DNA of 64,000 bases from Sulfurimonas sp. HSL-3221. Lineage in GTDB: Bacteria > Campylobacterota > Campylobacteria > Campylobacterales > Sulfurimonadaceae. Both the position numbers and the translations under genes were made by a program. Under the pieces are notes generated by a model, which saw only the letters and a program-made list of their open reading frames with translations, did no database searches and was not told the DNA's origin. The stretch covers positions 248,001 to 312,000 of the forward strand of contig NZ_CP087998.1 of NCBI RefSeq assembly GCF_021044585.1. The letters run 5' to 3'. Below are positions 11,450-12,705 of this stretch, piece after piece. Numbering within the stretch: the first letter of the stretch is position 1; the number at the start of each line of letters is the position of its first letter.

Positions 11450-11566
11450 TTTTGAACGCTCTCCTTTAGACCTGTGCAATGCGTAGGCGAGGCACTGGGT
11501 CAGGATGGGAACATAGCAGCCCACCTTTTCTGTGCATGTGCCGCAGGTATCTGGAGGAGAGTTCCT
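11450..11566 (+). ncRNA. ffs: Signal recognition particle RNA (4.5S type)
   Basis: The RNA folds as one long hairpin. GAACGCTCTCC (from 11454) and AGACCTG on the 5' side pair with CAGGTATCT and GGAGAGTTC (to 11564) on the 3' side. The apical region carries the universal Ffh-binding domain: GTCAGGATGGGAACATAGCA around 11501-11520, with a GGAA tetraloop flanked by the CAGG and AGCAGCC internal-loop strands. A T-rich stretch (11571-11580) follows. The exact 5' end is uncertain; the promoter predicts a start near 11429 and the helix begins at 11454. There is no sign of an Alu domain. Confidence 0.88.
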
Positions 11567-11639: not shown

Positions 11640-11669
11640 TTGATGGTATTGAGCCCTTCCCGCTACAAT
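11640..11669 (+). promoter_or_regulatory. Promoter for the HvfA-like gene
   Basis: TTGATG (11640-11645) and TACAAT (11664-11669) lie 18 bases apart, about 34 bases before the start codon at 11703. Confidence 0.55.
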
Positions 11670-11702: not shown

Positions 11703-11957
11703 ATGAAAACGTACAAGTTGGCGGCCATGCTGCTCGGAGCGGCCCTGATGACGGGGATCGGAGCGACGTCGGCCTTTGCGAAATGCAACGGTGAGAAAAT
11801 GGAAACACCGGCAACCAAATGCAGTGGTGAGAAAAAAGCGAACATGAATACCAAGTGCAACGGCGAGCAAAAAGCGAACATGAACGCCAAATGCAACGGT
11901 GAGAAAAAAGAAGAGAAGCCCAAAGGCAAATGCGGCCAGGGCAAATGCGGCGGGTGA
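11703..11957 (+). CDS. HvfA-like exported cysteine-repeat peptide
   Basis: The 84-aa precursor has a signal peptide (1-26, cleavage after SAFA) and then a cysteine ladder: C28, C40, C52, C64, C77 and C82. Four units of about 12 residues begin KCNGE or KCSGE and are lysine-rich, ending in GKCGQGKCGG. The repeated KCG/KCNGE pattern and the DoxX gene behind it resemble HvfA of the Hvf/bufferin group, whose EGKCG cysteines are modified by a DUF692 (MNIO) enzyme and HvfC and bind copper. Neither enzyme is in the window, so modification is unproven. AAGGAG lies six bases before the ATG. It could instead be an unmodified metal-binding peptide. Confidence 0.65.
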   Translation: MKTYKLAAMLLGAALMTGIGATSAFAKCNGEKMETPATKCSGEKKANMNTKCNGEQKANMNAKCNGEKKEEKPKGKCGQGKCGG

Positions 11958-11995
11958 CCCCGCAGCAGTGAGTTTCGCGCAGGAAAGGAGCCGCC

Positions 11996-12445
11996 ATGCA
12001 ATGCCAGCTTTCCAACCTATGTAAAATCGTCGAACCGGCCGTGGAAAAGCTCCAGAGTGTCGCACTGCTTTTCGTACGGCTGATCCTCGCCTACGGTTTT
12101 TATGAACCGGCGAAGATGAAGTGGAACGATATCGGCTCCGTGGCCGAATGGTTCGCTTCTATGGGCCTCCCAATGCCCACGCTGCAAGCATACCTGGCGG
12201 CAACGACGGAAGCGTCGGGTGTCGTGCTCTTGACACTGGGGCTATTTACGCGGCTGATCTCCATTCCGTTGATGGTCGTCATGCTCGTTGCCATTACCCT
12301 TGTGCACCTGCCCAACGGCTTCCAGTCGGGCAACAACGGGTTCGAAATCCCGCTGTATTATTTGATTATGCTTTTCGTCCTGCTGACGCACGGCGCCGGT
12401 AACCTCTCCTTCGACCGGCTGCTGTTCAAAAGCAAAGAGGCCTGA
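11996..12445 (+). CDS. DoxX family membrane protein (HvfX-like)
   Basis: The 149-aa protein has four predicted membrane helices and the DoxX pattern: LLFVRLILAYGFYEPAKMKW, GLFTRLISIPLMVVMLVAI and a C-terminal GNLSFDRLL. AAAGGAG precedes the ATG, and the gene starts 38 bases after the HvfA-like peptide on the same strand. DoxX members include thiosulfate:quinone oxidoreductase subunits and HvfX of metal-stress operons. The pairing with a cysteine-repeat peptide favours the HvfX type. The reaction it catalyses is not known from sequence. Confidence 0.75.
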   Translation: MQCQLSNLCKIVEPAVEKLQSVALLFVRLILAYGFYEPAKMKWNDIGSVAEWFASMGLPMPTLQAYLAATTEASGVVLLTLGLFTRLISIPLMVVMLVAITLVHLPNGFQSGNNGFEIPLYYLIMLFVLLTHGAGNLSFDRLLFKSKEA

Positions 12446-12477: not shown

Positions 12478-12705
12478 TTAATCTTCCCGGTATTTTGAAA
12501 TCCCGCACGGCTGGTTCGGTGAGGGCGGATGCGCTTCGAGGTATTCGAGATCCTCGAGGGTCTGTTTGAGGACCTTCTGCTGCTGCAGCAGCGGCAGCAT
12601 CGCGTTATCTTTCTGGGTCAGGTTGAGCTTCATATCCATCAGGATCGCCTGCACCTCTTTGTCGAGGTCGGACAGGGCGTTTCTTACGTGTTCGATCGGT
12701 TTCAT
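12478..12705 (-). CDS. Small coiled-coil protein of unknown function
   Basis: I do not recognise this 75-aa protein. It is almost entirely helical, with a heptad-like leucine/isoleucine spacing over residues 5-55 (VRNALSDLDKEVQAILMDMK and LLQQQKVLKQTLEDLEYLE), then a proline-rich tail. A cytoplasmic coiled coil is likely. There is no ribosome binding site; instead TATAAT on the minus strand ends exactly six bases before the ATG, predicting a leaderless message. Confidence 0.65.
   Translation of the reverse strand: MKPIEHVRNALSDLDKEVQAILMDMKLNLTQKDNAMLPLLQQQKVLKQTLEDLEYLEAHPPSPNQPCGISKYRED

Follow-up and report, generated by a model that had tools for sequence, protein, structure and literature searches.

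A Lys-Cys repeat peptide beside an HvfX-family protein in a Sulfurimonas genome without MNIO: a candidate copper-handling unit

In the stretch of the Sulfurimonas sp. HSL-3221 genome analyzed here (64,000 nucleotides, the window), a gene for an exported cysteine-repeat peptide is followed by a gene for a DoxX membrane protein, and the locus contains no maturation genes. Peptides of this kind, familiar from copper-binding systems, are ordinarily modified by the iron enzyme HvfB (MNIO/DUF692) together with HvfC (DUF2063). An earlier description made from the letters alone (the sequence-only reading) had noted their absence from the locus, which we confirmed, and offered two options: that the maturation genes are encoded elsewhere, or that this is a minimal unmodified version. 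The features of the locus are as follows.

11463..11560, + strand: small SRP RNA gene (ffs), an upstream neighbour outside the unit (Rfam RF00169, 62.5 bits, gathering threshold 40)
11640..11669, + strand: promoter-like site TTGATG-18-TACAAT 5' of the peptide gene (consensus scan, 9/12)
11703..11957, + strand: exported Lys-Cys repeat peptide gene (ORF; 84 aa, 6 Cys, C-terminal KGKCGQGKCGG)
11781..11910, + strand: 36-bp tandem repeat encoding 12-residue units of the peptide (TRF score 146, 3.6 copies, 77% matches)
11996..12445, + strand: HvfX-family DoxX membrane protein, 149 aa (NF050144, PF07681)
12478..12705, - strand: 75-aa ORF without a family, downstream of HvfX (ORF; Pfam scan)

The peptide had been described as HvfA-like and exported, with cysteines at residues 28, 40, 52 and 64 and a GKCGQGKCGG end. 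The translated ORF agrees with this and adds two cysteines, at 77 and 82. The 36-bp repeat was detected independently in the DNA, so the 12-residue cysteine period is a genuine tandem repeat. The four repeat units read KC[N/S]GE, and the canonical motif is found only in the last position (KCGQGKCGG). By eye, the N-terminus carries a Sec-like signal with cleavage between AFA and K. Pfam and NCBIfam scans matched the peptide to no family and no precursor model; the best matches, to PARP (E 0.07) and CopL (E 1.4), were far under cut-off and were rejected as memberships. The DUF2282 domain of type 1 bufferins had no match in the peptide at E<=10. One promoter-like site was found before the gene compared with 1.1 expected in shuffled sequences, i.e. 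at chance level; its -10 hexamer is invariant across 4 members of the genus.

The DoxX gene, which starts 38 bp past the stop codon of the peptide gene, encodes a member of the HvfX family. It scored 130.4 bits against the curated model NF050144 (matur_HvfX_fam; cut-off 80) and matched PF07681 with E 2.3e-18, which gives a family to the DoxX partner of the sequence-only reading. The AlphaFold2 model of HvfX is all-helical (mean pLDDT 86), and a Foldseek search against the PDB returned no match under E 0.1. One passage of a 2026 preprint terms HvfX 'yet uncharacterized' (PMC13419390). Upstream of the peptide gene lie lspA and the SRP RNA gene, and downstream, on the opposite strand, BacA/UppP is found besides the 75-aa ORF. 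Look-alikes of this ORF, judged by eye, adjoin HvfX in locus L338 and a KCG protein in L245. The window's genome (G000) also encodes a further HvfX that scores above the cut-off and has no accompanying peptide (G000:C1:2329541-2330008, - strand; L067:6542-7009). It is followed by a PF01645 glutamate-synthase-like protein, and such a PF01645 partner adjoins HvfX in 29 of the 104 loci clustered below.

We searched the whole of G000, a single contig of 2.52 Mb listed as 100% complete, for the maturation genes, as the sequence-only reading had proposed. MNIO/DUF692 (PF05114) and DUF2063 (PF09836) each had 0 matches, and an MNIO profile of the genome's own order, A2, built from eight MNIO proteins, had no match at E<=10. 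Positive controls for these searches matched in Caulobacter. The sole weak MNIO match in the genus, found with A2 in G006, covers 51 positions (E 0.04) and contains an internal stop. Elsewhere in the order the MNIO matches are strong (37 of the 38 genomes that have one reach E values under 1e-70), and a missed MNIO in G000 is therefore unlikely. Since neither PF05114 nor the own-order profile found anything in a complete genome, it is extremely improbable that a divergent MNIO encoded elsewhere modifies the peptide in trans. The first of the two options thus falls: MNIO in trans and DUF2063 elsewhere were both rejected because the genome-wide searches were empty. Of the three refuting observations listed with the sequence-only reading, one, the lack of a DUF692 homologue in the genome, is thereby borne out.

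The arrangement was found to be widespread in the order and not peculiar to this genome. In a sample of 398 genomes of the order, drawn from a larger group and unevenly related, MNIO was present in 38 genomes, HvfX over the cut-off in 86, and the KCGxGKCG motif in 81; the last were found by a DNA pattern whose reversed form matched 6 times in all. HvfX and KCG co-occur, with 63 of the 398 genomes having both (odds ratio 45). MNIO is absent from 64 of the 81 KCGxGKCG genomes and from 62 of the 86 HvfX genomes. KC peptides directly adjoin HvfX in many genera of MNIO-less genomes, and the G000 locus, with a KC-repeat peptide adjoining HvfX in a genome without MNIO, fits this group. In the MNIO-less peptides, Lys precedes 327 of 348 cysteines, and the position after Cys is freer, being Gly in 227 of 348 cases versus 66 of 72 in peptides beside MNIO. 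A lipobox-like stretch was present in 9 of 59 KC peptides beside HvfX in MNIO-less genomes. In five loci of genus g57 (L105, L148 and others), HvfX and the KCG gene are followed by a small lipoprotein and a look-alike of the ferredoxin-thioredoxin reductase catalytic subunit (by eye). In a published survey, MNIO was missing from 67 of 2583 genomes with Buf_EGKCG, a state termed rare there (PMC12452194, Table 3); the figure was obtained with different profiles and a different sample from the 64 of 81 here. In one passage, its authors guess that such precursors need no post-translational modification or are no longer functional (PMC12452194).

Within the genus, both genes are under purifying selection. 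Peptide homologues were found in 6 of 8 genomes, all six cysteines are kept in the four genomes compared, and dN/dS among these four ranges from 0.11 to 0.21 in the peptide gene and from 0.01 to 0.13 in the HvfX gene. On a tree of HvfX, which has few columns and many open forks, the distribution of MNIO-linked and MNIO-less members needs at least 2 changes on well-supported branches and four on the best tree. The two kinds are interleaved, so MNIO has been repeatedly gained or lost. This could suggest that the peptide and HvfX are a relic of a lost MNIO system. However, dN/dS is well below 1 for both genes, on which ground the relic reading was rejected, and the presence of the peptide in most of the genus and of the MNIO-less state in many genera also makes a relic very unlikely.

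A function is suggested by two further G000 proteins with KCGxGKCG, both in copper settings.

G000:C1:1875268-1875780 (L168:6269-6781), + strand: PCu(A)C chaperone with a KCGSGKCG tail (PF04314)
G000:C1:348901-349212 (L167:5902-6213), - strand: KCGAGKCG lipoprotein, 103 aa (motif pattern; no Pfam family)

The chaperone (PF04314, E 7.4e-41) has its KCGSGKCG at the C-terminus and is encoded upstream of a Sco1-like gene. A CusA-like RND gene overlaps the lipoprotein gene with its 3' end; relatives of the lipoprotein sit behind CusA or CopA in many MNIO-less genomes. In other MNIO-less genomes, KCGxGKCG was found on a DsbD_2 protein beside ccoN, on a cytochrome c and on YtkA-like proteins. In four loci of genus g5 (L176, L182, L241, L243), the DsbD_2 membrane protein encoded next to ccoN has a KCG tail at its C-terminus, possibly a copper delivery tail for the cbb3 oxidase. 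Among 88 distinct KCGxGKCG loci, 37 either belong to a list of copper genes themselves or have a gene of that list within 3 kb, compared with 41 of 1045 ORFs in other loci that near such a gene; this enrichment is partly circular because the list was drawn up after the neighbours had been seen. The count was deduplicated on the last 60 residues, took the first KCG protein of each locus only, and leaves out L251 (MNIO+) and L257-L264. In the same count, HvfX was the neighbour in 11 loci and GMC or Gdh3 (described below) in 16, with some loci counted twice, and 32 had none of these. HvfX loci are seldom close to copper genes, with a copper-list gene within 3 kb in 7 of 73 MNIO-less loci and 0 of 27 MNIO+ loci, so copper is argued here from the motif and not from the HvfX loci.

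Our best explanation, in which we place middling confidence, is that the peptide and HvfX form a periplasmic copper-handling unit without MNIO chemistry. The genes, the absence of MNIO and DUF2063, the selection and the motif on copper proteins are observed; the functions of all components we infer. Sec would export the peptide, and processing would leave a disordered chain of some 58 residues that carries six Lys-Cys sites. Free thiolates on this chain would bind Cu(I), or another soft metal like it, and buffer that metal in the periplasm; binding without MNIO chemistry is suggested by the KCGxGKCG tails of copper proteins in this MNIO-free genome. HvfX, as its partner in the inner membrane, would act directly on the peptide and not solely on MNIO maturation, for example by keeping the peptide's thiols reduced or passing metal.

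The second option of the sequence-only reading, a minimal unmodified version, is compatible with all of these findings. Its word 'unmodified', however, is unproven, since many MNIO-less genomes carry a pair of GMC oxidoreductase and Gluconate_2-dh3-like protein linked to the peptide or HvfX. Clustering of the neighbours in 104 HvfX loci, 27 of them in MNIO+ genomes, placed a GMC oxidoreductase beside HvfX in 35 loci from 8 genera and a Gluconate_2-dh3-like protein in 28, in both cases with 0 of the 27 in MNIO+ genomes. MNIO and DUF2063-like proteins were beside HvfX in 12 loci each by this clustering, all MNIO+; coordinates add G010, G179 and G210 to the MNIO-adjacent loci. The small type of PF13618 protein (Gdh3) occurs in 88 genomes of the order sample, a count that, like those that follow, excludes 11 genomes whose PF13618 protein is of a longer type with a strong score. 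It was found in 53 of 64 MNIO-less versus 0 of 17 MNIO+ KCG genomes, and in 52 of 62 MNIO-less versus 5 of 24 MNIO+ HvfX genomes. The contrast was retained when stratified by family (p 8e-5), a test that mends only partly the kinship ignored by Fisher values. In 41 of 66 genomes no more than 5 kb separates Gdh3 from an HvfX or KCG gene, where about 0.7 would be expected.

The two arrangements are exchanged between members of the same genus: KCG-MNIO-HvfC-HvfX in G249 corresponds to KCG-HvfX-Gdh3-GMC in G127, and a further exchange separates G246 from G199 and G085. In L177 and L184 the genes for Gdh3 and the peptide overlap or adjoin directly, and the same gene orders recur among 80 loci of named genomes. 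Outside the order, HvfX-sigma-antisigma-Gdh3-GMC follows a KCG gene that contains an in-frame stop in the Bacteroidota MAG L362, and another Bacteroidota MAG, L313, has KCG-HvfX-sigma-antisigma-Gdh3 on a short contig (sigma and anti-sigma names assigned by eye). PF05114 had no match in these two MAGs, whose completeness is unstated. Of nine other Bacteroidota genomes with HvfX, four have MNIO away from HvfX, two beside it and three none. G000 itself has the pair, with a PF13618 match (E 9.2e-8) at G000:C1:1292546 and an adjoining GMC gene, so modification by another enzyme is possible. This pair lies about 1.03 Mb from the peptide-HvfX locus and is also distant from the other two KCG genes, and the pair is unlinked throughout the window's genus.

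The GMC protein is nearest to the FAD glucose dehydrogenase 6a2u, presumably the B. cepacia-type enzyme, and to fructose dehydrogenase. Among 72 aligned members, a Cys triplet (229, 235 and 240 in the G000 copy) is invariant, and the NHITGS of 6a2u reads NL.AGG. The His lost in this way is the catalytic His of GMC dehydrogenases. Gdh3 starts with RRxFL, which by eye is Tat-like; a Foldseek search with its model found no PDB match under E 0.1, and phmmer found no match in the PDB.

These observations allow a reading in which, in MNIO-less lineages, a periplasmic GMC flavoprotein with Gluconate_2-dh3 replaces MNIO-HvfC; it would oxidise the peptide, process it in some other manner, or employ it as a redox or metal partner, and in G000 the pair would act in trans. 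The enrichment of Gdh3 in MNIO-less KCG and HvfX genomes, including within families, its close linkage, the restriction of HvfX-adjacent GMC to MNIO-less genomes, the same-genus exchanges, the Gdh3-peptide gene overlaps and the two Bacteroidota MAGs all point this way. A related GMC oxidase is described as active on primary thiols in one part of a report (PMC7414962), which makes thiol chemistry on an exported peptide conceivable. On the other hand, the pair is unlinked in the window's own genus, 22 of the 88 genomes with small-type Gdh3 have neither HvfX nor KCG, and Gdh3 coexists with MNIO in five HvfX genomes that belong to a single family. In the GMC subfamily, the position matching the H of NHITGS in 6a2u, the nearest dehydrogenase of solved structure, also no longer carries a His, and, given the Tat-like start of Gdh3, the pair may be no more than a periplasmic dehydrogenase that answers to the same stress control. 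We therefore regard a replacement of MNIO-HvfC by this pair as possible but improbable. No publication in the open-access library searched joins a GMC oxidoreductase with DUF692, gluconate 2-dehydrogenase subunit 3 or Sulfurimonas, or MNIO with Campylobacterota.

Alternatively, the peptide and HvfX could serve as a periplasmic thiol redox or sulfane-sulfur buffer and not as a metal buffer. The named relatives include Sulfurimonas, which are sulfur oxidisers. As stated in parts of one article, the DoxX of M. tuberculosis belongs to a thiol oxidoreductase complex, and HOCl induces a DoxX-DUF692-DUF2063 operon of H. influenzae under RpoE2 (PMC7907618). However, the same genome has KCGxGKCG on a copper chaperone and at a copper pump locus, and we consider a thiol or sulfur buffer unlikely. 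The copper-handling unit described above remains our preferred reading.

Among known systems, the peptide and HvfX resemble oxazolin/HvfABCX of Haemophilus influenzae (the Buf_EGKCG class, or EGKCG captophorins) in the apparent Sec-type signal, Lys-Cys repeats and adjoining HvfX-family DoxX gene. They differ in that G000 has neither HvfB (MNIO) nor HvfC (DUF2063), and in that the first four of the peptide's six cysteines are in KC[N/S]G units spaced by 12 instead of paired EGKCG. The bufferins Buf1 (DUF2282) and Buf2 are likewise exported Cys peptides with DoxX and are tied to copper in the sections of the survey that treat them (PMC12452194); the present peptide has no DUF2282 match and is accompanied by neither MNIO nor a PME-type 1 partner. 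The searches for the enzyme and the partner that define oxazolin and bufferin RiPPs found neither of them, and for this reason we do not count the peptide among these RiPPs. The family name given by NCBI casts HvfX as a maturation protein. HvfX is kept with the peptide where MNIO is absent, which indicates a role of its own that MNIO-less strains allow to be studied apart from the enzyme. The KCGxGKCG tails of copper proteins in an MNIO-free genome also raise the question of whether copper binding requires MNIO chemistry.

The FAD glucose dehydrogenase (6a2u) and fructose dehydrogenase complexes share with the GMC/Gluconate_2-dh3 pair a GMC subunit, what we take to be a small partner subunit, and the aligned Cys triplet. 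Here, by contrast, GMC is linked to a KCG peptide and HvfX, the aligned His is lost, and no cytochrome subunit was recognized beside the GMC loci inspected by eye. On a bolder and less likely reading, Lys-Cys metallophore peptides would have a second machinery, for maturation or redox, that does not depend on MNIO: the exported, His-less GMC with Gluconate_2-dh3, exchanged with MNIO-HvfC behind the same peptide and HvfX several times in Campylobacterales and present also in Bacteroidota. If true, this would add a new class to the ribosomal peptide systems, one whose modifying enzyme is periplasmic. A close precedent is the set of MNIO-less Buf_EGKCG genomes, in which the precursor likewise occurs without MNIO in the genome (PMC12452194). 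There the state is called rare, and the part of the survey that lists these genomes gives no partner genes; here it prevails in one order (64 of 81), selection is seen in the window's genus, and the peptide occurs with HvfX and often with GMC/Gdh3, a specific alternative enzyme pair now named for MNIO-less loci.
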